A DNA stretch of 38,032 bases. Origin: Elusimicrobiota bacterium (lineage in GTDB: Bacteria > Elusimicrobiota > Elusimicrobia > UBA1565 > UBA9628). The DNA is taken from NCBI GenBank assembly GCA_003151975.1, contig PLZD01000013.1, positions 1 through 38,032 on the forward strand. The letters run 5' to 3'. Positions within the stretch are counted from its first letter, which is position 1; the number at the start of each line of letters is the position of its first letter. The notes below the pieces were generated by a model. That model searched no databases and was not told the origin of the DNA. It saw only the letters and a program-made list of their open reading frames with translations. Position numbers and translations under genes: made by a program. Below, piece by piece: positions 13,459-36,672 of this stretch.

Positions 13459-13493
13459 TCCGAAATCGAGGGAGTCCGCCCCGCGGCTATACT
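13459..13493 (+). promoter_or_regulatory. TCCG-N23-TATACT promoter of the S53 protease, leaderless
   Basis: TCCGAA (13459-13464), 23 bp, TATACT (13488-13493), then CTAGGA (6 nt) and ATG at 13500. It belongs both to the leaderless set and to the TCCG promoter class seen mainly after 24 kb. Confidence 0.6.
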
Positions 13494-23780: not shown

Positions 23781-24401
23781 TTATCGTTTGGCGAGCAGGT
23801 ACGGCTCAGATTCGGGATTGGTCCTCATGACAGGTGCGCGCAGCATCGTTGCGGGCGAGCGGTAGTACGCGAACACGTCGCGCACGTAATGCCGCGTCGC
23901 CAGCGGCCAGCGGCGGGGTCTGCGGTGGAACATGCGCGGTCCCGCGTTGTAAGCGGCGACGATCCTCTGCTGGACCCACAGCGGCGCATCAGAGCAGCCC
24001 TTTGCCTTGAGAGCGTAGATGATGCGCGCGCGGCCGCAGAGCACGTCCAGATAGGCCGTCCCGGCGCGCAGGTTCGAGTCGGGGTCGTGCAGTTTGGCGC
24101 GAGGCACGCCCAGCCCCTCCGCGGTCGACGGCATGACTTGCATCAGCCCGCGCGCTCCCTTGGGCGAGACCGCGCCGTAATAGAATCCGGATTCCGCGGC
24201 GATGATGGATTTCACAAGACGCGGATTCAGACGATGGTCTTGGGCGTTCTTGAGGATCAGTCCGTCATAACGCGCGGCCTTCTCAGCTTGAGACATGGGC
24301 GCGCGCCGGCGCGCGCCGCCGGGCTTTGGGCCGACGGATCCCTCGGCCGCCGAACCCGCGTGAATCAGGCACACCAGGCAGACCGTCGCGATTATCTTCA
24401 T
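23781..24401 (-). CDS. Lytic transglycosylase (SLT domain), secreted
   Basis: The signal peptide is MKIIATVCLVCLIHAGSAAEG. The SLT/goose-lysozyme-like domain shows the catalytic Glu in IIAAESGFYYGAVSPKGARGLMQVMPSTAEGLG, the GLMQ motif, and the C-terminal AAYNAGP. Such enzymes cleave peptidoglycan glycan strands with formation of 1,6-anhydromuramic acid. The start at 24401 begins the signal peptide and lies exactly 6 nt after TATAGT; the longer frame adds 12 residues upstream of the promoter box and is rejected. It is the first gene of a two-gene unit with the small anchored protein. Confidence 0.93.
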   Translation of the reverse strand: MKIIATVCLVCLIHAGSAAEGSVGPKPGGARRRAPMSQAEKAARYDGLILKNAQDHRLNPRLVKSIIAAESGFYYGAVSPKGARGLMQVMPSTAEGLGVPRAKLHDPDSNLRAGTAYLDVLCGRARIIYALKAKGCSDAPLWVQQRIVAAYNAGPRMFHRRPRRWPLATRHYVRDVFAYYRSPATMLRAPVMRTNPESEPYLLAKR

Positions 24402-24407
24402 ACAGTG

Positions 24408-24442
24408 ACTATACGCGCTTTCGCGGGCCGCGCCCATGCGGA
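24408..24442 (-). promoter_or_regulatory. TCCG-N23-TATAGT promoter of the lytic transglycosylase, leaderless
   Basis: Minus-strand TCCGCA (24437-24442), 23 bp, TATAGT (24408-24413), then CACTGT (6 nt) and ATG. One of the TCCG promoter class. Confidence 0.65.
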
Positions 24443-24506
24443 GTAATACGCGGGCAGGCGAATAGCTCGCCGCAAGCCGCGGCCGCGAGGCCGAGGAGAC
24501 AAAACG

Positions 24507-25826
24507 CTATGGGGCATGTTCCCCCGGCGGCGGGTCATTGCGGTTGTCCGGGAGGAGCGCGGCGTCGGGTTCCGGGTATAAGAGGAACGGCTTGCGGGCC
24601 TCCTCAAAATCGCGCGCGTCTTTTTCGAACAATTCTTGGAATTTATCGAGGCGGGCGTCGCGTTCGTAAAGATGCCTGAAATTGTCGTTCCCGGTCATGA
24701 GCTTGGCCTCGTCCCAGCGCCAGACGAACTCATTTGGATGGACATGCCGAAGCGCCAGCATGATCTGCAGGAACACGGCCAACGGACTCAGCTTCTCCCG
24801 GTCGGTGATCTTAAGGCGAAGGCCGTGACAGAGCAGACCCGCATAGACGCCTTCGGTCGGCGCGTAATCCTGCGCCGAGATCTGCAAGCCTGCGAGAGGC
24901 TTTCCCTCCATGTTTTTGAGCACCGCCTGCGCGTTCATCCAGGGCGCGCCGATCCAGCGATAGGGCGCGGGCGTTCCGAGCCCTACGGCGGCGTTGGAGG
25001 CTTCGAAGAGAGCGATGCCGGGATAAAGCGTCGCCGCGTCCAGCGACGGCATATCGGGAGACGGCGGCACCCAAGGCAGGCTCGTCTGATCGAACCACAT
25101 GGATCTCGACCACCCCTTCATGGCGATGACGTGAAGCTCGGAATTGCGGACCTCGGCGTTATAAAGGAGGGCCACCTCGCCGGCCGTCATGCCGTGGCGC
25201 ACCGGCACCGCGTAGAACGCTCTCGGCGAGATCCTGCGCAGACTCAAATCGTCGAGCGTGGGCCCCTCGATCGAGACGCCGTTGATGGGGTTGGGCCGGT
25301 CCAGAACGTAAAAGCCGATGTCGGCCCGGGCCGACTCTTCGAGAGCCATGCCCATGATCGCGAGGCTGGTATAGAAGCGCGAGCCGATATCCTGCATGTC
25401 GAAGACGAGCGCATGGAGTCCGGCCAAGTTCCCATGCTTGGGCCGCATGCCTGCGATCCCGCCGGAGGAGAGGCTGTACACCGGGATATCGAATCCGGCG
25501 ATCCGCGCGGTCGAGGAGGAGCTGACGCCCACGCTCTGGCCGTCGCCGGCGATGCCGTAGTCGGGCGAAAAGATCGCGACGAGGCTGACGTCGGGGGCGC
25601 TCGCCAGGATCGCGGCCGTGCTGCGGCCCTTGTTGTCGACGCCCGTGTGATCGGTGACCAGGCCGATGCGTTTGCCGCGCAGTTCCTGAAAGCCCTCGGA
25701 CTCGAGCACATCGATGCCCGTGAGCACGCCGGGCGCGGGAGCGCAGGCGGCCGTGGAGATGAGGATGGCGGCCAGAATCGGCTTCATTATCCTCTGCATG
25801 TCTTTCTTACGCGAAGCCGCTTGCAT
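24507..25826 (-). CDS. DUF1343/NamZ-family exo-beta-N-acetylmuramidase-like lipoprotein
   Basis: The family signatures are clear: RIGLVTDHTGVD, DMQDIGSRFYTSLAIMG, DRPNPINGVSIEGP, and VPVRHGMTAGEVALLYN. Characterised members (NamZ) release N-acetylmuramic acid from the ends of glycan fragments in wall turnover. The usual SPEHG motif reads SPDYG here, so activity may be changed. The N-terminus ends in LISTAAC, a plausible though imperfect lipobox. Three ATGs compete: 25826 (13 nt after TATACT), 25799 and 25787 (nearest to the signal); I list the longest supported by the promoter. It neighbours the lytic transglycosylase, suggesting joint peptidoglycan recycling. Confidence 0.88.
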   Translation of the reverse strand: MQAASRKKDMQRIMKPILAAILISTAACAPAPGVLTGIDVLESEGFQELRGKRIGLVTDHTGVDNKGRSTAAILASAPDVSLVAIFSPDYGIAGDGQSVGVSSSSTARIAGFDIPVYSLSSGGIAGMRPKHGNLAGLHALVFDMQDIGSRFYTSLAIMGMALEESARADIGFYVLDRPNPINGVSIEGPTLDDLSLRRISPRAFYAVPVRHGMTAGEVALLYNAEVRNSELHVIAMKGWSRSMWFDQTSLPWVPPSPDMPSLDAATLYPGIALFEASNAAVGLGTPAPYRWIGAPWMNAQAVLKNMEGKPLAGLQISAQDYAPTEGVYAGLLCHGLRLKITDREKLSPLAVFLQIMLALRHVHPNEFVWRWDEAKLMTGNDNFRHLYERDARLDKFQELFEKDARDFEEARKPFLLYPEPDAALLPDNRNDPPPGEHAP

Positions 25827-25839
25827 CGGGGCTTGCCCC

Positions 25840-25874
25840 AGTATACGCGTCCTCCCGCCCGCCGCATAGTCGGA
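25840..25874 (-). promoter_or_regulatory. TCCG-N23-TATACT promoter of the NamZ-like gene
   Basis: Minus-strand TCCGAC (25869-25874), 23 bp, TATACT (25840-25845). The first ATG is 13 nt downstream, so the leader would be only about 6-7 nt. The element is preceded by GGAATTCC. Confidence 0.6.
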
Positions 25875-25916
25875 ATTCCACCGTGAGTCCCGCGTACAAC
25901 TACGCATCGCCGTGTG

Positions 25917-26201
25917 TCACTCCACCAAGAACCGGCGCGGCGCCGAGCGGGTCGATATCCCTCCGCCCATGTGGGCGCGGGCCGTTAACTCATGTTCGCC
26001 GTTCTCGAAACCGCTCCAATCGTACCACCAGAGCCCGACCGCTTCCCGGCAAGGCATCCAGTCGCCTTCGTCGATGGAAACCTCGACGCCGGCGGCCCCC
26101 GGAGTCGCCGCGATGTGAAACGCGTAAGACGGTCGCGCGATCACGGCGCCCTCGCTGGGGTATTCTACCCGCACGGTCGCGTCTTTATTTCGCGTAGCCA
26201 T
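25917..26201 (-). CDS. Small single-domain Ig-like protein (94 aa)
   Basis: This short protein has no signal peptide. VRVEYPSEGAVIARPSYAFHIAA ... VEVSIDEGDWMPCREAVGLWWYDW ... GEHELTARA follows the strand order of bacterial Ig-like domains of the Big_7 kind, normally embedded in large surface proteins, so a free cytoplasmic copy is odd. AAGGAGAG precedes the ATG. A truncated relative (VRVEYPGEGEVIAQ) occurs at 36513-36629. It has its own TCCG-class promoter and is divergent from the phospholipid-repair operon. Function unknown. Confidence 0.75.
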   Translation of the reverse strand: MATRNKDATVRVEYPSEGAVIARPSYAFHIAATPGAAGVEVSIDEGDWMPCREAVGLWWYDWSGFENGEHELTARAHMGGGISTRSAPRRFLVE

Positions 26202-26227
26202 ACTTCTCTCTCCTTAATCTTCTTTCT

Positions 26228-26262
26228 AGTATGCCCCATCAATCGCTCGGCGGAAATACGGA
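26228..26262 (-). promoter_or_regulatory. TCCG-N23-CATACT promoter of the Ig-like gene
   Basis: Minus-strand TCCGTA (26257-26262) preceded by GGATAAC, 23 bp, CATACT (26228-26233). It is in mirror arrangement with the promoter at 26311-26345, which also begins GGATAACTCCG. Confidence 0.62.
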
Positions 26263-26310
26263 GTTATCCGCGGCCGACAGCGTATTATTACCCTCGATAA
26301 CCAGGATAAC

Positions 26311-26345
26311 TCCGCATTGTGGAGGACTTAGGCGGCGCGTATACT
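26311..26345 (+). promoter_or_regulatory. TCCG-N23-TATACT promoter of the phospholipid-repair operon
   Basis: TCCGCA (26311-26316) preceded by GGATAAC, 23 bp, TATACT (26340-26345). A leader of about 60 nt follows to the ATG at 26414, which has AAGGAG upstream. Confidence 0.68.
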
Positions 26346-26413
26346 CATGATGAGCCCGGCTATTCGGGAAGGGCGAGGCGGGGAAGCACAGGAGAACCCG
26401 CAAAGGAGCTGCG

Positions 26414-26620
26414 ATGAAATCAAGGATTCTGAAACGGATAAACCCCAAGAAGCCGAAACTTTCCGACGGCAACACGCGCGGGCCGGACGCGCCGCTCAAT
26501 GAAGGCGCGGCCGAGTCCTTTCAAGAGGTAGAGCCGACGGGCTTCAAGGACCACCCGCGTTCATCGATCGAGGCCGCCGTCGTGGATCCCGACGTCGAAG
26601 ATACGAAAGGCGGCGAATAA
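26414..26620 (+). CDS. Small hydrophilic protein, unknown (68 aa)
   Basis: The product begins with a basic stretch (MKSRILKRINPKKPKL) and continues acidic and Gly/Pro/Asp-rich, with no predicted structure; it is probably disordered. AAAGGAG lies just upstream of the ATG. It is the first gene after the TCCG promoter and 21 bp before pldA, so it belongs to the phospholipid-repair operon. It resembles in style, though not in clear sequence, the 92-aa protein at 37107-37385. No function proposed. Confidence 0.65.
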   Translation: MKSRILKRINPKKPKLSDGNTRGPDAPLNEGAAESFQEVEPTGFKDHPRSSIEAAVVDPDVEDTKGGE

Positions 26621-26641
26621 AGAGGCGGGCCGCATGAGCCA

Positions 26642-27577
26642 ATGACCCGATTACTGACGATCCTCCTTGTCATTTCCGCGGCGGGCTCGGCCCGAGCCGC
26701 GGGCGCGCCCATGCCCGCGGGCGTGTCGGTCTCGACGGCCTCGCCCGTTGCTATCCCCACGCCCGCGCCGCTGCCGAATCCTCTGGAAAGCAAGATGCGC
26801 ATGCAAAACGCGGTCGAGTCGAACAATCCGTTCGGCCTCGTGCCGCATCGCCCGAACTACCTTCTGCCGTACACATACAACACGAGTCCCAATCAGCCCC
26901 CCTTTGGCGCCCAACAGCATGGAGCAACACTGCAGAAAGCGGAGATGAAGTTTCAGATCAGCTTCCGCCTTCCGGTGTGGAAACACATTTTTGGCCAGGA
27001 TCTCAGTCTCGACCTAGCTTACACCCAGCTATCGTTCTGGCAGGCGTACAATACCCGGGACTCATCGCCGTTTCGCGAAACGAACTACGAGCCGGAGGCG
27101 CTGCTGCGGCTCAATACGCACTTCCACATCCTGGGTCTGGAGAATCAGTCCATTATTTTAGGCGCGGACCATCAATCGAACGGACTCGGCACGGGACCCG
27201 AGAAGCGAAGCTGGAACCGATTGGACGCGGAGTTCGACGTGAACCGCGGAAACTTCGAGTTGAGCCTCAAGCCTTGGCACCGCATCACCGAGCCGGCCGG
27301 CAACGACGACAACCGCGACATCGAGAAATTCATGGGATACGGAGAATTGCGCGCCCGGTACAAGATGGGTTCGCAGGTCGCAAGCCTGCTGTTCCGGAAC
27401 AACTTCCGGGGAGGCGGCGCAAACAAGGGTGCCATTGAACTCGGCTGGAGCGGCCCCTTAGTGCGCCAACTGCGCTGGTATGCCCAGTATTTCAACGGCT
27501 ACGGCGAGAGCCTCATCGACTACAACCATGTGAACCAGCGCATCGGGGCGGGCATTCTATTCGGAGAATGGCTCTAG
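26642..27577 (+). CDS. pldA: Outer-membrane phospholipase A (OMPLA)
   Basis: A signal peptide (MTRLLTILLVISAAGSARAAGAP) precedes the PldA domain. The catalytic His177-x-Ser179 in GADHQSNGLG and Asn192 in KRSWNRL match the His-Ser-Asn triad of OMPLA. Barrel strands include SLDLAYTQLSFWQAYN and EALLRLNTHFHI. OMPLA hydrolyses phospholipids that reach the outer leaflet of the outer membrane, giving lysophospholipids and fatty acids. The two downstream genes encode the transporter and the acyltransferase that recycle those lysolipids. An AGAGGCGG sequence lies about 15 nt before the ATG. Very confident. Confidence 0.93.
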   Translation: MTRLLTILLVISAAGSARAAGAPMPAGVSVSTASPVAIPTPAPLPNPLESKMRMQNAVESNNPFGLVPHRPNYLLPYTYNTSPNQPPFGAQQHGATLQKAEMKFQISFRLPVWKHIFGQDLSLDLAYTQLSFWQAYNTRDSSPFRETNYEPEALLRLNTHFHILGLENQSIILGADHQSNGLGTGPEKRSWNRLDAEFDVNRGNFELSLKPWHRITEPAGNDDNRDIEKFMGYGELRARYKMGSQVASLLFRNNFRGGGANKGAIELGWSGPLVRQLRWYAQYFNGYGESLIDYNHVNQRIGAGILFGEWL

Positions 27578-27596
27578 GACCCTGGATCGGGGATGA

Positions 27597-28820
27597 ATGA
27601 CCATGAATAGCCGGCTCAATTATCCGCTGCTGCTGGCCAGCCAATTTTTGAGCGTCTTCGGCGACAACCTCATTCTCATGTTCATTCTCGGGCCGTTCTT
27701 GAAGCAATTCGAAGCCGGCAAGATCACGGGCGAAGCGCAAAGCCTCGCCGTCATATTTTACACCAGCCTCTTGTTCATACCTTGCGTTTTGCTGGCGCCC
27801 CTGGCCGGCTACCTCAACGACCGCTTTTCAAAAAATCGCTGGTTGACCGGCGGAAACCTGGTCAAATTGGTCGGCGCCGCCCTGGCCTGGTTTGGCCGGG
27901 GTTCATCCCCCGCTTGGCTTGGGATCGGATATTTCACCATCGGAATCGGGGTCTGCGTTTATTCGCCCGCCAGGTACGGCATCCTGCCTGAAATTCTGCC
28001 GGCCGAGCGATTGGTCAAAGCCAACGGGTTGATGCAAGCTCTGACGCTCATCGCCATTTTGACGGGAAACATCGGCGGCTCGGCCGCGTTTGGCCGGGCT
28101 CCGTTGGGGACATGTTATCTCATGGGCATCGGCGTTTACGGGATGTCGCTTGTCCTGAGCCTTTTGATGTCCCATACCCCCGCTTATCCGGGAGTGCGCC
28201 TGCGAGGCAGCCTGCGCCATTTTTTTTCAAACCTGGCCGAGCTCTTTTCGCACGGGAGACTGGCGCGGATATTGGTCGGTACGGCATTGTTTTGGATTTG
28301 CGGGGCGATCCTCAAAATGAATTTTCAGTCTTGGGGCCAGCAGGTTTTGCGATTGACGACCATGCTGCAAGTCAGCCTGCTCGGTCTCTGGTTGAGCGTC
28401 GGCATCATGATCGGCAGCGTGTCGGCGGGGCTGATTTATGCCGTCGGAGATTTGCAGGCGACTCGGCTTTATGGCTGGCTGCTAGCCTCCGGTATCGCGG
28501 CGCTCGGAAGCATGCGCTGGCTCATGAGCCATGGCTTGCGGTATCCCAATTATGTGGCCCCCGTCCTGCTGGTTTTTGCGGGGGCGGCTGCCGGTCTGTT
28601 TCTTATTCCGCTCAACGCGGCGCTGCAAGCCGAATCGCCCAAGGACAAGCTGGGCAAGACCATCGCCACGCAGAACGGCTTTGAAAATCTCGCCATGCTT
28701 GGCGGCGCCTTCCTGGCGTTTATCGACGTCAAAGCGGGGTTTAACCCGTCGGAACTCTTTCTCGCGCTGGCCGTGTTTGCCGCCGTCGTGGGAAGCCGGC
28801 TCAAGATCCCCGCCAAATGA
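27597..28820 (+). CDS. lplT: Lysophospholipid transporter (LplT-like MFS)
   Basis: A 407-aa major facilitator protein with about 12 helices. The segments LLASQFLSVFGDNLILMFILGPFL, APLAGYLNDRFSKNRW, GVCVYSPARYGILPEILPAERLVKANGLMQ match E. coli LplT closely. LplT flips lysophosphatidylethanolamine across the inner membrane so that Aas can reacylate it. The two ATGs (27597, 27603) are both possible; GGGGATG precedes them. The stop overlaps the aas start codon (ATGA). Context with pldA and aas makes the assignment strong. Confidence 0.92.
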   Translation: MTMNSRLNYPLLLASQFLSVFGDNLILMFILGPFLKQFEAGKITGEAQSLAVIFYTSLLFIPCVLLAPLAGYLNDRFSKNRWLTGGNLVKLVGAALAWFGRGSSPAWLGIGYFTIGIGVCVYSPARYGILPEILPAERLVKANGLMQALTLIAILTGNIGGSAAFGRAPLGTCYLMGIGVYGMSLVLSLLMSHTPAYPGVRLRGSLRHFFSNLAELFSHGRLARILVGTALFWICGAILKMNFQSWGQQVLRLTTMLQVSLLGLWLSVGIMIGSVSAGLIYAVGDLQATRLYGWLLASGIAALGSMRWLMSHGLRYPNYVAPVLLVFAGAAAGLFLIPLNAALQAESPKDKLGKTIATQNGFENLAMLGGAFLAFIDVKAGFNPSELFLALAVFAAVVGSRLKIPAK

Positions 28821-30946
28821 AAGCGATCATCCGCCTGCTCTTGCGGTCGTTGTTCGGGTTTCGCGTCCATAACCCCGCGGTTCTTGACGCGCCCGGCCCC
28901 GTCATGCTGCTGCCCAATCACGCTTCCTGGTTCGATTGGCTCTTCGTGGCGGCCTGCCTCGACGACCGCTGGAAGATCGTAGCCTCCAACCAGGTCGCCC
29001 AGACCAGCTGGCTGCATCGGCTCATCATGATCAACCGGTTCACCTTTCTCGTCGATACCGATTCCCCGTACGCCGTCAAGCGAATGGCGGAATATTTGAA
29101 AGAGGGCGGCAAGTTGGTCCTTTTCCCGGAGGGCCGCATTTCGCGCACCGGCGCCCTGATGAGGCTCTTCGAAGGCACGGGCTTCCTGCTTTTCAAGACC
29201 AAGGCGAAAGTCATCACCTGCTATTTGCGAGGCACCAACCGGCTGCCCTTCTCGCCCAATCCGAACCGAAAAATATGGTTCCCGCGCGTCAGCGCTCATT
29301 TCGGCGAGGTCCTGACGCCGCCGGACTTGACGGGCACGAAAACTATGCGCGCGCGGCATAGGCTCACCGGCTGGCTGTACGAGGCGATGGTCAAGCAGCA
29401 ATTCGACATCGAACTCGAGGCCACGCCCAAAAACGTATTCGCGGCCATCCTGCAAACGGCGCGCCAATGCCAGGATGCCGTTGCGGTGGAAGATGTGACC
29501 CATCGGAAATTAACCTACCGGCGTTTGTTGGCGGGGGCGGATGCGATGGCGCGGCAGTGGCGCAGGCTGTGGCCCGGCCATTACAACGCGCGCATCGGAG
29601 TGATGCTGCCCGCTTCGCTGGCCATGCCGGTGACGATGCTGAGCCTTTGGGAGGCGGAGCTGATCCCGACGATCTTCAACTTCTCCGCGGGTGCCGCGAC
29701 CATGCTGGGATGCGCGCGGCTGGCCGGCGTCAAGCAGATCATCACCTCGAAAGAATTCCTGGAGCGGACCAAGCTGGACGTGAAGGCGATAAAGGATGCG
29801 GGCATCGAATTTATTTTGTTGGAGGATGTCAGCGCCCGGATCACGCGCGGCCAGCGATGGCGCTCGCTGCTGCGCGTCGCTTTGAACCCGCGGAGCCTGA
29901 TCCCGAAGCCGAGATCGGAGGTGGCCGTGATCCTTTTCACCAGCGGCTCGGAAGGCGTGCCCAAGGGAGTGGAGCTGACCCACACGAACCTCTTGGCCAA
30001 CATCCGCCAATTGCTCTCCGTGTTCGATCTAAACGACGGGGACCGTCTTTTCAATTCGATGCCGTTGTTTCACAGCTTCGGAGTCATCGGCATGGCCCTC
30101 CCGCTGATCCATGGCTGTTATGTGTTTCTTTATCCATCACCGCTTCATTACCGCGTGATCCCGGCGCTGATCTATGACTTGGACTGCACCGTGTTTTTCG
30201 GCACCAATACGTTTTTGAACGGCTACGCGCGCAAGGCCAATCCGTTCGATTTCCGCTCGCTGAGACTCCTTTTCGCGGCCGCGGAAAAACTGGAGGAAAG
30301 GACCGCCGACATCTGGGCGCGGCAATTCGGCACGCGCGTCTTGGAAGCTTACGGCGCGACCGAATGCAGCCCGTGCATCACGGTCAATACCCCGATCAAT
30401 CCGCGCTTCGGGTCCGCCGGAAAATTCATGCCGGGAATGGAGTATAAGCTCGAGAAGGTGGAAGGCGTCACCGAGGGCGGACGATTGTGGGTGCGCGGCC
30501 CGAACATCATGTGCGGCTATTTGAACGTGGAGGCCGATGAGAAGTTCGTGGCCTGCGGCGGCTGGTACGATACCGGCGACGTCGGACGCGTGGACGAAGA
30601 CGGCTTTCTCTACATTCTTGGCCGCCTAAAGCGCTTCGCCAAGGTCAGCGGCGAAATGGTCAGCCTGGCCGCCGCGGAGGAAGCTTTGGCCGGGGCGTTT
30701 CCGCAGTACGGCCTGCGCTTTCAAATCGCCGTGGTGGCCCGGCCCGACTCGGACCGGGGCGAAGCGCTGGTCGCAGTCTGCAACGAGCCAAGATTGAAGC
30801 CGGAGGAAATCCGCGCGGCGATCAGCAAGAAAGGGTTGAGCAATCTTTACGTCCCGAAGGAGATCAAATTTGTGCCGGACATTCCGAAGCTCGGCACAGG
30901 TAAAGTAGACCACCGCGAATTGCAGAAAATCATTACGGCAAGGTGA
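28817..30946 (+). CDS. aas: Bifunctional lysophospholipid acyltransferase / acyl-ACP synthetase
   Basis: Residues 1-200 are a PlsC-type acyltransferase: NHASWFD (His35-x4-Asp40) and FPEGRIS. Residues about 220-709 are an AMP-forming acyl-activating domain: LFTSGSEGVPKGVELTH (P-loop, about 373-389), YGATECSP and YDTGDVGRVDEDGFLYILGR. The length of 709 is close to E. coli Aas (719). The enzyme activates a fatty acid on ACP and transfers it to lysophosphatidylethanolamine on the inner face of the inner membrane. It is translationally coupled to lplT. The next gene, a Crp/Fnr-type regulator, begins 3 bp after its stop. Confidence 0.95.
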   Translation: MKAIIRLLLRSLFGFRVHNPAVLDAPGPVMLLPNHASWFDWLFVAACLDDRWKIVASNQVAQTSWLHRLIMINRFTFLVDTDSPYAVKRMAEYLKEGGKLVLFPEGRISRTGALMRLFEGTGFLLFKTKAKVITCYLRGTNRLPFSPNPNRKIWFPRVSAHFGEVLTPPDLTGTKTMRARHRLTGWLYEAMVKQQFDIELEATPKNVFAAILQTARQCQDAVAVEDVTHRKLTYRRLLAGADAMARQWRRLWPGHYNARIGVMLPASLAMPVTMLSLWEAELIPTIFNFSAGAATMLGCARLAGVKQIITSKEFLERTKLDVKAIKDAGIEFILLEDVSARITRGQRWRSLLRVALNPRSLIPKPRSEVAVILFTSGSEGVPKGVELTHTNLLANIRQLLSVFDLNDGDRLFNSMPLFHSFGVIGMALPLIHGCYVFLYPSPLHYRVIPALIYDLDCTVFFGTNTFLNGYARKANPFDFRSLRLLFAAAEKLEERTADIWARQFGTRVLEAYGATECSPCITVNTPINPRFGSAGKFMPGMEYKLEKVEGVTEGGRLWVRGPNIMCGYLNVEADEKFVACGGWYDTGDVGRVDEDGFLYILGRLKRFAKVSGEMVSLAAAEEALAGAFPQYGLRFQIAVVARPDSDRGEALVAVCNEPRLKPEEIRAAISKKGLSNLYVPKEIKFVPDIPKLGTGKVDHRELQKIITAR

Positions 30947-30949
30947 TAT

Positions 30950-31687
30950 ATGAAAACCATAATGCGGGTCGGCGTGCCGGTTTTGCTCGAGCCGCCCCGG
31001 GACGAGGCATTCCACGGGAATCTTAAGACCTTCCTGCCTCAATTGGAGCTGTTCCGCGATATCACGCCTTCTGTATTGCAGGAGTTCGCCTCCAAATTGC
31101 GCGTGCACCGGTTCGCCGCCAACGAACACTTGCCCGCGCAGGCGGAGTTGGAGCAGAGCTGCTGGATCGTGCTGGAGGGGGTTATCGAGCGCAGGGTGAT
31201 CTCATCGGCGGGAAACATGACGGCCGTCGACGTGGCCGCGCAGGGAGACATCTTTGGCTGTCTCTTCGGCGCCTGCTCCGTGCCGATGCACGTCGAATCG
31301 GTGGCCTTGGCGCCGTCGATCGCCGCCAGCATATCTTGCGAGGATTGCAGAGCCATACTGCCGCACGCGCCGTTGTTCAACCAGAATCTGATCCGCCTGT
31401 TGTCGAGGCGATTGCGCGAGGCGCGGGAGCTCAGAGCGATGACCGCGGAGCCAGCGAGAATAAGAGTACTCTGGACCCTCCTCTTGCTTTATTTGAAGCT
31501 GGGAGCGGAGATCCCGTTAACGCGGACGAACATGGCCGAAGTCGCTGGCGCGGCGAGGGAAACGGTAATCCGCACGCTCTCGCCGCTCGAGAAGAAGGGA
31601 GACATCCGCACTGTGCGGGGCAAGATCCATGTTCTCAATCCCCATGGCTTGGCGGAATTCTTGGAGAAGATCAAAGCGCCGGCTTGA
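30950..31687 (+). CDS. Crp/Fnr-family transcriptional regulator
   Basis: A cyclic-nucleotide-binding-like domain (residues about 30-140: FRDITPSVLQEFASKLRVHRFAANEHL) is followed by a winged HTH (PLTRTNMAEVAGAARETVIRTLSPLEKKGDIRTVRGKIHVLN). The canonical cAMP pocket RS is not evident and an Fnr-type Cys cluster is absent, so the ligand is unknown. At 245 aa it is of normal length. It starts 3 bp after aas and may regulate this operon. The recurring TCCG promoter element is not a Crp/Fnr palindrome, so a direct link to it is doubtful. Confidence 0.9.
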   Translation: MKTIMRVGVPVLLEPPRDEAFHGNLKTFLPQLELFRDITPSVLQEFASKLRVHRFAANEHLPAQAELEQSCWIVLEGVIERRVISSAGNMTAVDVAAQGDIFGCLFGACSVPMHVESVALAPSIAASISCEDCRAILPHAPLFNQNLIRLLSRRLREARELRAMTAEPARIRVLWTLLLLYLKLGAEIPLTRTNMAEVAGAARETVIRTLSPLEKKGDIRTVRGKIHVLNPHGLAEFLEKIKAPA

Positions 31688-31734
31688 CCCGTCCATGCCG
31701 CAATACGGAGTTTTACGCGGAACGCAGGTAGAAG

Positions 31735-31769
31735 TCCGGATTGTGCCGACGCCAAGCGGCGGCTATCCT
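31735..31769 (+). promoter_or_regulatory. TCCG-N23-TATCCT promoter of the exbB-exbD operon
   Basis: TCCGGA (31735-31740), followed by TTGTGC, total 23 bp, then TATCCT (31764-31769). The ATG at 31771 would lie upstream of the transcription start and is rejected; the ATG at 31801 has GGAG five nucleotides upstream. Confidence 0.6.
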
Positions 31770-31800
31770 TATGGTACGGGGCTGGAATGATCGGAGCAAG

Positions 31801-32427
31801 ATGAAATCACTTCTGATGTCTTTGGCGGTCACCGGCGGCGACTGGGTGATCTGGGCGCTCGGCTTGGCCTCGGTGGCCGCGGTCGCCGCGATGTACGACC
31901 GCTTCCAGCTCCTGCGGGCCGAGGCGGCCGCGCTGGCGATGCTGCGCGGGCCGTTTCTCGCCGCGCTGCAGGCCGACGATCCGGTCGCGGTGCGCAAGGC
32001 GTTGACTTCTTATCCCGGAAGCGCCTCGCGCGCGCTGACCGAGGCGCTCGACAACCTGCCGCGCGGGCCGGAAGCCGCGGCCGAGCACCTCGCCGCCGCG
32101 CTCTCCGACGAGCGCCGCCGCCTCGATCGCCGATTGCTGATTCTCGGCACGCTGGGCAACAACGCGCCGTTCATCGGACTGTTCGGCACGGTGCTGGGCG
32201 TCATCAAGGCCTTTCGCGACCTGTCGCAGAGCGGCGCGGGCCCGGAAGTCGTGATGGCGGGGCTTTCCGAGGCGCTCGTCGCGACCGCGGTCGGCCTGCT
32301 CGTGGCCCTGCCGTGCGTCGTCGCTTTCAACAATCTGCAGAAGCGCGTCCGCAACCTTGTCGGCGAAACCGAGGCGTTGGGCCGCCGCCTGGGCGCGTCG
32401 GCGCGCGCCGAGACCAAGCGCCGCTAA
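31801..32427 (+). CDS. exbB: ExbB/TolQ/MotA-type proton channel protein
   Basis: A 208-aa inner-membrane protein. Helix 1 is TGGDWVIWALGLASVAAVAAMYDRFQLLR; helices 2-3 carry the family motif LGTLGNNAPFIGLFGTVLGVIKAFRDLS ... VATAVGLLVALPCVVAFNNL. ExbB pentamers with an ExbD dimer form the proton-driven motor that energises TonB. The next genes encode ExbD and a TonB-like fusion. Start at 31801 selected by Shine-Dalgarno and promoter position. The assignment to Exb rather than Tol is by neighbourhood and is uncertain. Confidence 0.9.
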   Translation: MKSLLMSLAVTGGDWVIWALGLASVAAVAAMYDRFQLLRAEAAALAMLRGPFLAALQADDPVAVRKALTSYPGSASRALTEALDNLPRGPEAAAEHLAAALSDERRRLDRRLLILGTLGNNAPFIGLFGTVLGVIKAFRDLSQSGAGPEVVMAGLSEALVATAVGLLVALPCVVAFNNLQKRVRNLVGETEALGRRLGASARAETKRR

Positions 32428-32437
32428 AGGAGCCCCC

Positions 32438-32839
32438 GTGGAAGCCTCCGACGACGAAGAAGGCGGGATCACCGGCATCAACATTACCCCGCTCGTCGAC
32501 GTGACGTTGGTCGTGCTGATCATCTTCATGGCGACCGCCCCCCTGATCGCGCGCCGCGCGATCAAAGTCGACCTGCCCAAGGCCGCTCTGCACGAGAAAA
32601 CGGAGACCGACGCGCTCAGCGTGGCGCTCGACGGCGCGCGGCGCCTGACGCTCTCGGGCAAGGCCGTCACCGCGGACCAGTTGAAGCGGGCGCTGGCGCT
32701 CGCGGCGTTGGCCGACCCCGGCCAGGCGGTCACGGTCGCGGCGGACCACAACCTGCCTTACGGCGAGGTGACGGCACTCCTCGACGACATCCGCGGCGCC
32801 GGCGTGCGCAAGGTCGGGCTGGAGGTCGCCCGCAAATGA
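32438..32839 (+). CDS. exbD: ExbD/TolR-family proton channel protein
   Basis: A 133-aa protein with a single N-terminal helix (GINITPLVDVTLVVLIIFMATAPLI); Asp21 in PLVDV is the conserved proton-carrying residue of ExbD/TolR. The periplasmic domain follows (LSVALDGARRLTLSGKAV ... VAADHNLPYGEVTALLDDIRGAGVRKVGLEV). The start is GTG at 32438, set by AAAGGAG six nucleotides upstream; the longer frame only shadows exbB. Its stop overlaps the next ATG (ATGA), so the TonB-like protein is co-translated. Confidence 0.92.
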   Translation: MEASDDEEGGITGINITPLVDVTLVVLIIFMATAPLIARRAIKVDLPKAALHEKTETDALSVALDGARRLTLSGKAVTADQLKRALALAALADPGQAVTVAADHNLPYGEVTALLDDIRGAGVRKVGLEVARK

Positions 32840-33942
32840 ACCGAGCGCCCGAGGCTCCGCCTCCCGCACGTTCGCTCGCCGTGTCGTCTGCCCTCCACCT
32901 CGCCTTCTTTTCGCTGGCTCTGTTCGGCGCTCACCTGCTGGGGTCCGTGTCGACCGCGCCCGTGCCGCCGATGGAGATCGTGATCTCGACCCCGGCCAAG
33001 GTCGAAGCGGCGCCGGAGAAGCCGGCCGTCGCTCCGGTGAAGCCGCCGCCGAAGGCCCAGGTCGCCAGGAATCATGAAGAGCCCATGTCCAGGACTCGCA
33101 AAGCCGCGGAGTACGGCAATGTCCACGCCCAATTCGCTCTCGGCGGGTCGTATTACATCGGTCGCGGGGTCGCGCAAAATTACGGGGAGGCCGCGTCTTG
33201 GTTTCGCAAAGCCGCCGACCAGGGAGATTCCCGGGCGCAATCCAATCTCGGGACGATGTATTACGAAGGTCACGGGGTCGCCCAAAGTTATGCGCAGGCC
33301 GCGTTCTGGTATCGCAAGTCCGCCGACCAGGGCTATGCCGATGCGCAATCCATGCTCGGAGTCATGCACTACCAAGGTCTTGGGGTCGCCAAGAATTATC
33401 GAGAGGCCGTGTCCTGGTTCCGCAAGGCCGCCGAGCAGCGCTATCCCGAGGCGCAATACTATCTCGGGGGGATGTACCGCGATGGCGATGGAGTCGCGAA
33501 GGATTACGAAGAGGCCGTCGCTTTGTTTCGCAAGGCCGCGGAGCATCGCTATGCCCCGGCGAGTTACGCTCTCGGGTTGATGTACTTCCAAGGTCATGGG
33601 GTCGTTAGGGATTATCAAATGGCCGCGACTTGGCTTGGCAAGGCCGCGGAACACGGTCAAGCCGATGCGCAATACTTTCTTGGGGCGATGTATGACCTGG
33701 GTCTAGGGGTCGTCAAAAGTCCTGGAGAGGCCCTATTCTGGTATCGCGCAGCAGCGGAGCAGGGCAATGCCGCCGCGCAGGGCGCCCTTCGGGAATTGGG
33801 AAAATCTCATGGCAATACTCCAGGAGCCCCCTCGCAGGGCCAGAGACCCAAGCCAGGTCCGACAGCGCCCACGGTGGTTTCCCACGAAGAAATCTGGGAC
33901 ATGATTCATGCCGCTATTAATCGTAGGGCGGGGGATAAATGA
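32836..33942 (+). CDS. TonB-like N-terminus fused to Sel1 repeats
   Basis: The N-terminus is TonB-type: short cytoplasmic lead, one helix (residues about 13-38) containing Ser17-x3-His21, the Ser/His face by which TonB contacts ExbB/D, and a Pro/Lys/Ala-rich periplasmic linker (about 42-76). In place of the TonB C-terminal domain there are six full 36-residue Sel1-like repeats plus a partial seventh (33097-33744 and beyond), each of the RKAAxQGxxxAQxxLGxMYxxGxGVxxxYxxA type. A short basic tail (about 335-368) follows. Sel1 repeats form superhelical protein-binding scaffolds. So the motor may drive or position a protein complex instead of a TonB-dependent receptor; that is inference. Confidence 0.85.
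   Translation: MNRAPEAPPPARSLAVSSALHLAFFSLALFGAHLLGSVSTAPVPPMEIVISTPAKVEAAPEKPAVAPVKPPPKAQVARNHEEPMSRTRKAAEYGNVHAQFALGGSYYIGRGVAQNYGEAASWFRKAADQGDSRAQSNLGTMYYEGHGVAQSYAQAAFWYRKSADQGYADAQSMLGVMHYQGLGVAKNYREAVSWFRKAAEQRYPEAQYYLGGMYRDGDGVAKDYEEAVALFRKAAEHRYAPASYALGLMYFQGHGVVRDYQMAATWLGKAAEHGQADAQYFLGAMYDLGLGVVKSPGEALFWYRAAAEQGNAAAQGALRELGKSHGNTPGAPSQGQRPKPGPTAPTVVSHEEIWDMIHAAINRRAGDK
33097..33744 (+). repeat. Six tandem 108-bp Sel1 repeats
   Basis: Each unit encodes 36 residues; the repeats are similar also at DNA level, so other frames show periodic patterns. Units begin with codons for RKAA or GKAA. They are coding repeats and not a CRISPR array or satellite. Confidence 0.88.
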
Positions 33943-34003
33943 CGGAGAGCACTTTCAGCTTTTTTTCTCCGGCCTCGCTCCAACAAATAGGCCAGAGTTC
34001 CGC

Positions 34004-34009
34004 TAAACT
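34004..34009 (+). promoter_or_regulatory. -10 element, predicted leaderless promoter of the catalase-like gene
   Basis: TAAACT, then CTACGC (6 nt) and ATG at 34016. A T7 tract at 33960-33966 lies upstream. No TCCG element at the 23-bp position. Confidence 0.5.
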
Positions 34010-34015
34010 CTACGC

Positions 34016-35095
34016 ATGATTCGATTCCTCTTGGCGGCCGCGCTGCTCCAGGCGCCCTGGGCTTTCGCCGCTCAATCCTACGAATCCGTCCCTCCGGGCG
34101 AGGCGGAAGCGACCGCCGAAATCACCGCGCTGATCAAAGACACGGTCGCCAAGGACCAAAAGGAGACCGGAAGCGCTCATCGCGACGTTCACGCCAAAGC
34201 CCACGGCTGCGTGCGGGCGCAATTCCGCGTGAACGAGAAGCTCCCTCCGGAACTGCGGCAGGGGATTTTCCAGGAAGGCCGCGTTTATCGGAGTTGGATA
34301 CGCTATTCCAACGGCGCGGGACGCGCGGCGAAGGATTCAAAATACGACGTCCGCGGGATGGCGATCAAGCTCCTCGGCGTGCCGGGCCCCAAGCTCGCCG
34401 GCGACGAGAAAGCGACCCAGGATTTCCTGCTGATTAACGGTCAGGCCTTCTTCGTCCGCGACGCGGCCGACTACGTGGAGTTTTCGAAAGCCGCGGCGGC
34501 GGGCAAACCGTTTTCCTTCTTCGTCCACGGCTTCAATCCATTCCGGTGGCGGTTTCATGAGCTGAGGATCGCGTTTGCCCTCCTGCGTAAGAAGGCGGAG
34601 AATCCTCTCGACATCCGGTACTGGTCCCTGACGCCCTATTTATTGGGCGAGGCCGGTCCCGTGAAATATTCCGCGCGTCCCTGCGCGGCCGCTTCGGTCG
34701 AAAAGCCCGACAAGAATAAGCCTGACTTCCTGCGCGAGGCGATGTCCGCCCGGCTGAAGAACGGCGGAGCGTGCTTCGAATTCCTCGTCCAGTTGCGGAC
34801 GGACCCGTCTCATGAGCCCGTCGAGGATCCGACCGTGAGGTGGAACGAAAAGGCGTCTCCTTTCCGGCCGGTCGCGACGATCGACATTCCGGCGCAGCGC
34901 TTCGAAAGCCCGGAGCAGCAGAAATTCTGCGAGGACCTCTCGATGAACCCTTGGCATGCGGCGCCGGAGCACCGGCCTCTCGGCGGGATCAATCGCGTCA
35001 GGAAGGTCGTTTACGAAACCATCTCGAAGTTCCGCCATGATTTAAACGGCGCGCCGCGCTCGGAACCGACCGGCGACGAGACCTTCGCGCAATAG
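34016..35095 (+). CDS. Periplasmic catalase-related haem protein (y4iL-like)
   Basis: A signal peptide (MIRFLLAAALLQAPWAFAAQS) precedes a catalase-fold protein of 359 aa, shorter than full catalases (about 480 or more). HRDVHAKAHGCVRAQFRV contains candidate distal His; ATQDFLLINGQAFFVRDA matches the catalase core; NPWHAAPEHRPLGGINRVRKVVYETISKFRHDLNG contains the RxxxY motif that supplies the proximal haem tyrosine. It resembles the y4iL-like branch of catalase-related proteins, whose activity is not established: peroxidase or haem-dependent chemistry are both possible. ATG set by a TAAACT box 6 nt upstream. Confidence 0.87.
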   Translation: MIRFLLAAALLQAPWAFAAQSYESVPPGEAEATAEITALIKDTVAKDQKETGSAHRDVHAKAHGCVRAQFRVNEKLPPELRQGIFQEGRVYRSWIRYSNGAGRAAKDSKYDVRGMAIKLLGVPGPKLAGDEKATQDFLLINGQAFFVRDAADYVEFSKAAAAGKPFSFFVHGFNPFRWRFHELRIAFALLRKKAENPLDIRYWSLTPYLLGEAGPVKYSARPCAAASVEKPDKNKPDFLREAMSARLKNGGACFEFLVQLRTDPSHEPVEDPTVRWNEKASPFRPVATIDIPAQRFESPEQQKFCEDLSMNPWHAAPEHRPLGGINRVRKVVYETISKFRHDLNGAPRSEPTGDETFAQ

Positions 35096-35118
35096 CGCGT
35101 AGACGCCTATGTATTATT

Positions 35119-35153
35119 CCGCATAGTCGGGGGTCGGGACCGGCGGTATACTC
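35119..35153 (+). promoter_or_regulatory. TCCG-N23-TATACT promoter of the PqiA-like gene
   Basis: TCCGCA (35119-35124), 23 bp, TATACT (35148-35153). The leader runs about 20 nt to the ATG at 35179, with GAGGG six nucleotides upstream. Confidence 0.65.
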
Positions 35154-35178
35154 CCCCTAGAGCGTCGAGGGAAATCCA

Positions 35179-36504
35179 ATGACGGTCCCGCCAGAAAGGG
35201 CTGCGCGCGTCGCTCTCCTTACCATGTCCGATCGAACGAGACTGCTCCTGATCCTGGTTCCCGTGCTGGCGGTCAACGTCTTCTTGGGCGTCGATATCTA
35301 CCGCCTCTCCTCGCGGCGAGAAAAGGTCAAGGAAGACTACAGCCGGATCAACAGCATACGCTACGGGCTTCTCTCCGTGGATTCATGGGAAGAGCGCATC
35401 CGATCGGTCCTCGTGCGCAAGATCGGAGACTTCGAAATATCCAAGGGGCAGGAAGCCATCCTGCGCAGCGAGATCTCAACGGCTCTCAACACGCTGATCA
35501 CCGAAGCGGACAAGATGCTGCAGACGCGCCAAAGAACCCTTAAAGGCAAAGTGCGAAAAGTGCTCATCCGGGAGTTCGTCGACATGGACGACATGCGCAA
35601 GAAGGTCCCGGCCTTGACGCAGGCCATCCTCGATGAGCTCCAGACGCGCAGCCATCAGAGGAAGTTCAAGAAGATCGCCCGGAAGGACCTCGACGACTAC
35701 GCGGCGCAGACCCATGACAATCCCGACGACACGGCGCAGCATAGCGCGCTCTTGGCCCGATACCAGGCGGCGAGCGTCGCGGATTTCAACGGCGGCGCGG
35801 GACGGCGGCTTCAGTCTTTGGATTCCGACATCCAGGGCTGCACCGCCCTGATGCTCGACAGCGCGCTGGTATTCCTTTTCGCCTGGTGGCTCGCGCGCAG
35901 GAAGCCCGAGCTGCACAGCCCCCTGTTTTCCTTGTCGGCGGCGTTTGCCCTCGTTTTGCTCCTCGTAGGCCTAGCCTCGCCGATGATCGATATCGACGCG
36001 CGGATCAAGAACGTGGATTTCCTGCTGTGGGGGGAGCACGTTCAATTCAAAGATCAGATCTTATTCTTCAGAAGCAAGACCATCCTGCAGGTGGTCGGGA
36101 TATTGCTGGAAACAAGGAAGGCCGACTCGATCGTGGTGGGCGCGCTTCTTCTGCTGTTCAGCGTGCTCTTTCCGATCTTCAAATTGATCTCGATGGAAGC
36201 GTACATGCGGGGCGGCGTTGAGGTCAGGAGGAGCAGGTTGGTCGACTTCTTCGCGTTCCGGTCGGGCAAATGGTCCATGGCGGATGTCACCGTGGTGGCG
36301 ATCTTCATCGCCTACATCGGCTTCAAGGGACTATTGAGCAACCAGCTGGCCGGACTCAATATCAAGGCGGAGTACGTGGAGATCATCGCCACCAACGAAA
36401 CGGCGCTGCAGCCTGGATTCATCATCTTCGGGGCCTTCGTGCTGTTCGGTTTCGCGCTTTCGGAAATCTTGAAACTTGTAAGAAATTCAAGCCCGCTTCA
36501 GTGA
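35179..36504 (+). CDS. PqiA-like membrane protein with extra N-terminal domain
   Basis: The C-terminal half resembles PqiA: LLLLFSVLFPIFKLISMEAYMRGG followed by FRSGKWSMADVTVVAIFIAYIGF, the WSM-D signature of that family. The N-terminal half has one helix (RLLLILVPVLAVNVFLGVDIY), then about 170 charged, mostly helical residues (about 50-215) that are not part of PqiA, then further helices (from about 220). PqiA proteins work with an MCE protein (PqiB) in intermembrane lipid transport; no PqiB is in this window. Nearby phospholipid genes make a lipid role plausible, but this is inference. Confidence 0.75.
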   Translation: MTVPPERAARVALLTMSDRTRLLLILVPVLAVNVFLGVDIYRLSSRREKVKEDYSRINSIRYGLLSVDSWEERIRSVLVRKIGDFEISKGQEAILRSEISTALNTLITEADKMLQTRQRTLKGKVRKVLIREFVDMDDMRKKVPALTQAILDELQTRSHQRKFKKIARKDLDDYAAQTHDNPDDTAQHSALLARYQAASVADFNGGAGRRLQSLDSDIQGCTALMLDSALVFLFAWWLARRKPELHSPLFSLSAAFALVLLLVGLASPMIDIDARIKNVDFLLWGEHVQFKDQILFFRSKTILQVVGILLETRKADSIVVGALLLLFSVLFPIFKLISMEAYMRGGVEVRRSRLVDFFAFRSGKWSMADVTVVAIFIAYIGFKGLLSNQLAGLNIKAEYVEIIATNETALQPGFIIFGAFVLFGFALSEILKLVRNSSPLQ

Positions 36505-36512
36505 GGAAAACA

Positions 36513-36629
36513 ATGGTCAAGCGCAAATTAGATTCGGCCTCAAAGATCGAGAATGCTAAGAGCCGCCCTGTGGTGAGAGTCGAGTATCCCGGCGAGGGCG
36601 AGGTCATCGCGCAGAATCTTGCGGAGTGA
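36513..36629 (+). CDS. 38-aa protein, truncated relative of the Ig-like protein
   Basis: GAGG lies 5 nt before the ATG and the gene starts 8 nt after the PqiA-like stop, so it could be translated. Residues about 20-33 (VVRVEYPGEGEVIAQ) repeat the start of the 94-aa Ig-like protein (VRVEYPSEGAVIARP), then the frame ends at a stop codon just before a TCCG promoter. It looks like the remnant of a duplicate whose 3' part was lost. Confidence 0.55.
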   Translation: MVKRKLDSASKIENAKSRPVVRVEYPGEGEVIAQNLAE

Positions 36630-36636
36630 GTACAAT

Positions 36637-36672
36637 TCCGCATAGCTGCGGCGGTGAGGGGCGAGTTATCAT
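36637..36672 (+). promoter_or_regulatory. TCCG-N24-TATCAT promoter of the small Cys-rich protein gene
   Basis: TCCGCA (36637-36642), 24 bp, TATCAT (36667-36672). The leader runs about 75 nt to the ATG at 36752. It is the one member with 24 bp instead of 23. Confidence 0.5.

Follow-up and report, generated by a model that had tools for sequence, protein, structure and literature searches.

BvgA of Bordetella pertussis occupies its promoters as dimers spaced by 22 bp along the same DNA face, of which the proximal one abuts the -35 hexamer (PMC7250471). The sites of DevR/DosR, the NarL-family regulator of the Mycobacterium tuberculosis dormancy regulon, are often paired, the pairs being cooperative, the proximal site overlaps the -35, a pair can be common to divergent promoters, and the regulator is autoregulated (PMC3029386). 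Here, a promoter element of this geometry is described in a 38,032-nucleotide stretch of DNA from an uncultured Elusimicrobiota bacterium (contig PLZD01000013.1 of assembly GCA_003151975.1), the whole of which is called the window below. The element, reported in an earlier note on this DNA as TCCGCA placed 23 bp upstream of a TATACT-like -10 at eight operons, is very probably the operator and promoter of a two-component regulon in which an activator works on housekeeping promoters. The activator is likely a response regulator of the NarL/LuxR type, whose gene neighbors that of a CheB-CheR-PAS histidine kinase on a contig other than that of the window.

As read from sequence, the element shares with BvgA the 22-bp dimer spacing and the proximal site abutting the -35, whereas its operator sequence is different, its genes are stress genes rather than virulence genes, and it usually has two sites in place of the three to six of BvgA. 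With DevR/DosR, whose targets include universal stress proteins, it has in common a NarL-family regulator as the likely reader, paired sites with the proximal one at the -35, sharing by divergent promoters, and apparent autoregulation; the differences are the operator sequence, the CheB-CheR-PAS kinase, and the unrelated lineage, and the sequence similarity of DevR to the regulator is no more than moderate (E=6e-25 to 3c3w). The NarL and MctR families (NCBIfam) have the same receiver-plus-GerE architecture, and NarL is the best solved-structure match, but the regulator scores below both equivalog cut-offs (135.6 against 250 for NarL and 185.7 against 300 for MctR) and would work like BvgA and DevR rather than as a member of either equivalog. 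The RpoS, SigB, and EcfG regulons have overlapping targets (OsmC, BON/OsmY, CsbD, YtxH, GlsB, ferritin-like protein, superoxide dismutase, and Usp), while here it is apparently an activator on ordinary-looking promoters, and not a dedicated sigma factor, that controls them.

Anatomy of the element

In the following, G000 is the genome of the window, the window is its contig C62, and other G-numbers are relatives. The window holds six copies of the pattern TCCGNA-N22..24-TATNNT, where dinucleotide shuffles predict 0.23. Genome-wide, the contrast looked weak, with 40 hits to the raw pattern and 25 to its reversal; the good matches cluster on the small contigs C39, C50, C24, C61, and C62, and their alignment reveals a longer element. 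Most of the better matches to its half-site GTANNAYTCCGNAT have TATNNT at one exact distance, and a matrix of the proximal site and the -10 finds 118 sites scoring above 12, against none in reversed DNA, across the DNA covered from this genome and its relatives. The TCCGCA element is therefore real, and its conserved unit is longer than had been described, namely GTANAACTCCGNATTG, accompanied in most cases by another site 22 bp upstream; the consensus reads at..ggAGTTnTAC-N12-GTAnAAcTCCGnATTG, with TATacT 20 bp further on. The source genome has approximately 40 promoters marked in this way, and the median distance from the -10 to the start codon is 30 bp. The comparison of intergenic with coding DNA, proposed in the earlier note as a check, came out clearly, with 43 of 46 strong G000 sites intergenic in DNA of which approximately 10% is intergenic (p = 6e-39).

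If TATNNT is taken to lie at -12 to -7, the proximal site (CG)GTANAACTCCGNAT is a pseudo-palindrome from about -48 to -35, centered at about -43.5 and abutting the -35. In 97 of 114 promoters, another site of this kind stands 21–23 bp further upstream; the offsets peak at 22 bp, or two helical turns, over a background of approximately 1.5 per offset, which is the arrangement of paired dimers a whole number of helical turns apart. As each site is nearly symmetric, the upstream one may face either way, and one pair can serve divergent promoters (C50 3254-/3279+ and C24 7250-/7276+).

The downstream part of the element is that of an ordinary promoter. The gap to the -10 is sharply peaked (one value in 83 of 136), and the -35 hexamers are as poor as the earlier note had held, with a mean of 3.3 matches out of six (TTG in 59 of 115, TAG in 25, and TGG in 17). 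Ordinary promoters of the source genome follow TTGACA-N17-TANNNT (31 against 0 in the control at a gap of 17, with little at other gaps); measured against them, the element has a sigma70-type -10 at standard spacing and neither a -10 nor a spacing distinct from the housekeeping class. Since both share the -10 and the 17-bp gap, the polymerase spacing is ordinary, and what sets the element apart is the upstream site pair.

Other sources of such a pattern were considered. A second replicon or contamination behind the clustering was rejected, as the site-rich contigs match the rest of the genome in tetranucleotide profile; a separate contig, C44, stands clearly apart from the bin in its profile (correlation of approximately 0.69 to the window) and is a possible contaminant. 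A search of Rfam for an RNA element gave no match, and a hairpin was discarded because the variable arm bases are unpaired (e.g., A against G at 31735). Several regulon promoters also lie within approximately 700 bp of contig ends (G000 C59:82, C61:5223, and C34:109785), which suggests that the assembly breaks at repeated regulon genes.

Candidate regulator, kinase, and their co-occurrence with the element

The candidate kinase is a 1,432-amino-acid protein of CheB-CheR-PAS-HisKA_3-HATPase architecture encoded at C39 10019-14317, whose gene overlaps that of a NarL-type regulator, followed by two paralogues. The products of C39 14314-14997 and 16191-16862 combine a receiver (PF00072) with a GerE/LuxR helix-turn-helix (PF00196), i.e., the NarL/FixJ architecture, with a HisKA_3-type kinase beside them; the recognition helix of the regulator is SVRTAETHREHLSHKL. 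The paralogue between them (C39 15089-15523, 144 amino acids) consists of a receiver only, lacks a DNA-binding domain, and retains its own element-bearing promoter; it may serve as a phosphate sink. PilB-type T2SSE ATPases with a C-terminal receiver domain are also found in or beside element-driven operons (G000 C39 1162-3348 and C57 7510-9732).

The same type of regulator occurs on element-rich contigs of G033, G036, G039, G024, G021, and G043, usually with an adjacent histidine kinase gene; kinase-like genes adjoin it in G033, G036, G039, and G043. The element stands directly before regulator genes at G065 C10 8160 and 8918 and G063 C78 6220, as well as on G033 C140 and G039 C46, while the kinase-regulator operon of G000 is preceded by a weaker site (score 20.9).

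The regulator subfamily is well delimited, its members having at least 54% identity over full length and the next full-length homologues at most 40%, and it is present in 13 of 57 relatives. With a sequence model of the element, R1 (cut-off E<=1e-4), the element was found, among the matches listed in the 57 relatives, only in regulator-bearing genomes. Across 56 genomes of the order, it occurs in 13, all of them inside the 16 with the regulator at E<=1e-55 (p = 3e-10 if the genomes were independent). G011, G016, G062, G063, and G065 had contributed no site to R1; of the ten genomes that had not been used earlier, G062, G063, and G065 have both regulator and element, and the other seven have neither. 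The presence of the two is patchy within one genus (g9) and across three families; therefore, common descent alone is an unlikely explanation.

Window promoters and regulon content

The window was scored with a matrix built from 69 sites, all from other genomes. Seven of the eight reported sites were recovered; the next-best score in the window is 9.9, and the maximum over 200 shuffled windows is 14.8. The seven promoters and the genes behind them are as follows, with the element start and matrix score in brackets.

24408..24477, minus strand: regulon promoter (24442; 39.6), proximal site GTATTACTCCGCATGG at 24449-24434, -10 TATAGT at 24413-24408, drives the SLT transglycosylase
23781..24401, minus strand: lytic transglycosylase (SLT; Pfam PF01464), regulon member
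25840..25909, minus strand: regulon promoter (25874; 23.2; R1 E=5e-4), proximal site GTGGAATTCCGACTAT, distal site 22 bp upstream, -10 TATACT, drives NamZ
24507..25826, minus strand: NamZ exo-beta-N-acetylmuramidase (Pfam PF07075; NamZ_N/NamZ_C pair with PF20732), regulon member
26228..26297, minus strand: regulon promoter (26262; 30.0; R1 E=9e-5), proximal site GGATAACTCCGTATTT, -10 CATACT, drives a 94-amino-acid protein at 25917-26201
26276..26345, plus strand: regulon promoter divergent from the preceding one (26311; 34.6), proximal site GGATAACTCCGCATTG, -10 TATACT; behind it a 68-amino-acid open reading frame, pldA 26642-27577, lplT-like 27597-28820, aas-like 28817-30946, and the CRP-like gene
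26642..30946, plus strand: pldA, lplT-like, and aas-like phospholipid turnover genes (Pfam PLA1; MFS_1; AMP-binding and Acyltransferase), regulon members
30950-31687, plus strand: CRP-like regulator (Pfam HTH_Crp_2)
31700..31769, plus strand: regulon promoter (31735; 31.0; R1 E=7e-9), full inverted pair CAATACGGAGTTTTAC...GTAGAAGTCCGGATTG, -10 TATCCT, drives the ExbB, ExbD, and Sel1-repeat genes
31801-32427, 32438-32839, and 32836-33942, plus strand: ExbB, ExbD, and Sel1-repeat protein (Pfam MotA_ExbB, ExbD, and Sel1), regulon members
35083..35152, plus strand: regulon promoter (35118; 41.9), proximal site GTATTATTCCGCATAG, -10 TATACT, drives the PqiA-domain protein
35179..36504, plus strand: PqiA-domain protein (Pfam PqiA), regulon member
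36602..36672, plus strand: regulon promoter (36637; 26.5), proximal site GTACAATTCCGCATAG, spacing 24, -10 TATCAT, small open reading frames downstream

The strongest site, placed at 35119 in the earlier note, in fact starts at 35118; those at 25840-25874, which reads TCCGACT, and 26228-26262, with its CATACT, are real though weaker; and the gap of 24 bp at 36637 was borne out, with no distal site detected at that promoter when one was looked for. The site that dropped out is 13459-13493 (plus strand), upstream of an S53 protease, which scores 7.4, at background and below 8 with the other-genome matrix, and has neither the upstream GTANNAC nor AT after TCCGN; as a regulon promoter, it is ruled out by that score.

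The family of the 94-amino-acid protein recurs downstream of the element in G036 and G039. The members of this recurrent family have approximately 75–120 amino acids (VEYP..Y.F.I....VEVSID.G.W...REA.GLWW.DWSGF), and the one in the window has no Pfam match. The family or similar-looking open reading frames were noted at the following loci.

Window 25917-26201, minus strand
G000 C39 31157-31384
G036 C157, near 2200
G039 C48 11086-11394
G010 C55 6439-6792
G016 C110 4455-4799

Open reading frames resembling this family adjoin the regulator even where a genome has few or no detected sites, and others with a start like that of the PqiA-domain protein are present in stress clusters of G033 C140 and G065 C10.

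The earlier note had proposed an envelope-maintenance regulon, which fits the window, where the targets are mostly of the envelope (SLT transglycosylase, NamZ, pldA-lplT-aas, ExbBD-Sel1, and PqiA-domain protein), but genome-wide and in relatives general-stress markers dominate. Downstream genes recurrent in at least two genomes encode YtxH, GlsB/Transgly_assoc, lmo0937/DUF5670, OsmC, ferritin-like, L,D-transpeptidase, outer-membrane beta-barrel, and superoxide dismutase-family proteins; G000 adds BON, CsbD, Usp, aldehyde dehydrogenase, phosphatidylserine decarboxylase, CheW, and DUF1264, and G036 a YflT-like protein. Several unrelated stress-protection families appear under one control, and the predicted targets are best summed up as a general stress regulon that includes an envelope branch.

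Rival readings and proposed mechanism

Between the alternative sigma factor and the activator offered in the earlier note, the activator is favored by the site 22 bp upstream, the pairs shared by divergent promoters, the ordinary -10 and spacing, and the co-occurrence with the regulator. Several observations weigh against a two-component activator. The genomes are related, and p = 3e-10 overstates their independence; the regulator is present in G010, G034, and G041 although no site is detectable there, and in G016 there is a single site; G000 holds several regulator paralogues, any of which may be the one that acts; 26 of 115 promoters, three of them in the window, have no clear distal site; and two sigma70-family proteins besides the 574-amino-acid one are encoded in G000, either of which could read the element promoters. 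The kinase-regulator pairs on G010 C55, G034 C120, and G041 C17 are of the same subfamily and have neither detectable sites nor a stress-gene cluster nearby; these genomes possibly use a variant operator.

An alternative sigma factor (e.g., a group-2, RpoS-like one) would read TCCGNATTG as -35 and TATACT as -10, for which the very strict spacing, the poor -35, and the stress-type gene content speak, and the 343-amino-acid sigma70-family protein at C31:60955-61779 reaches 258 bits on the RpoS model. This is the best score and lies below the cut-off of 378.7, and the best SigBFG score is 123.8 against 234.35, in a metagenome-assembled genome that is 96% complete and has three sigma70-family genes. 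A sigma factor alone is disfavored because it leaves the similar upstream site, 22 bp away and in either orientation, unexplained and because the response regulator co-occurs with the element; two activator dimers are preferred to a new sigma factor, which we regard as unlikely, because the -10 and the spacing are standard and only the -35 is weak. A little less probable still is repression, in which the site that abuts the -35 would overlap it and block the polymerase; the poor -35 and the strict spacing to the -10 are as in activation, and known NarL-family parallels of the same geometry activate (PMC7250471, PMC3029386).

Another DNA-binding protein as reader is very improbable. One candidate, the CRP-like regulator of the window, is encoded in a target operon, and its gene immediately precedes the 31735 promoter, but its relatives (E<=1e-25) are confined to G000, G007, and G066, of which G007 and G066 are without the element, and it is absent from 12 of the 13 element-bearing genomes; with this wrong phylogenetic profile, it is nearly refuted. 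That the element is a dispersed, promoter-carrying repeat spread by copying is hardly credible; the clustering on few contigs and two near-identical paralogous promoters on C39 would be expected of a repeat, but the spacers between the sites and from site to -10 are unrelated in sequence, only the contact positions are conserved, and the promoters all keep a similar distance from start codons (median of 30 bp).

Under two-component activation, stress would lead the kinase to phosphorylate the regulator, two dimers of which would then occupy the CGTANAACTCCG sites, one near -43.5 and the other near -65.5, along the same DNA face. The bound dimers would recruit the housekeeping RNA polymerase holoenzyme to promoters too weak alone, one site pair could serve two divergent promoters, and the regulator would boost its own expression while turning on the general stress regulon with its envelope-repair branch. 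A wider proposal, which we put forward tentatively and hold at somewhat less than even, is that the core general stress response of this order is run by a patchy, self-amplifying two-component module (the CheB-CheR-PAS kinase and NarL-type paralogues) that uses paired dimer sites on housekeeping promoters, with no dedicated sigma factor.

No published description of this system was found in the open-licence literature, a scope that makes this weak evidence. The control circuit is of a familiar kind, worked out here for an uncultured group. For the order, this yields an operator of defined sequence, a likely regulator, and a set of approximately 40 regulon promoters, and many small proteins of unknown function are linked to stress protection. 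The findings suggest a lineage in which a two-component activator does the job that is usually that of RpoS, SigB, or EcfG.

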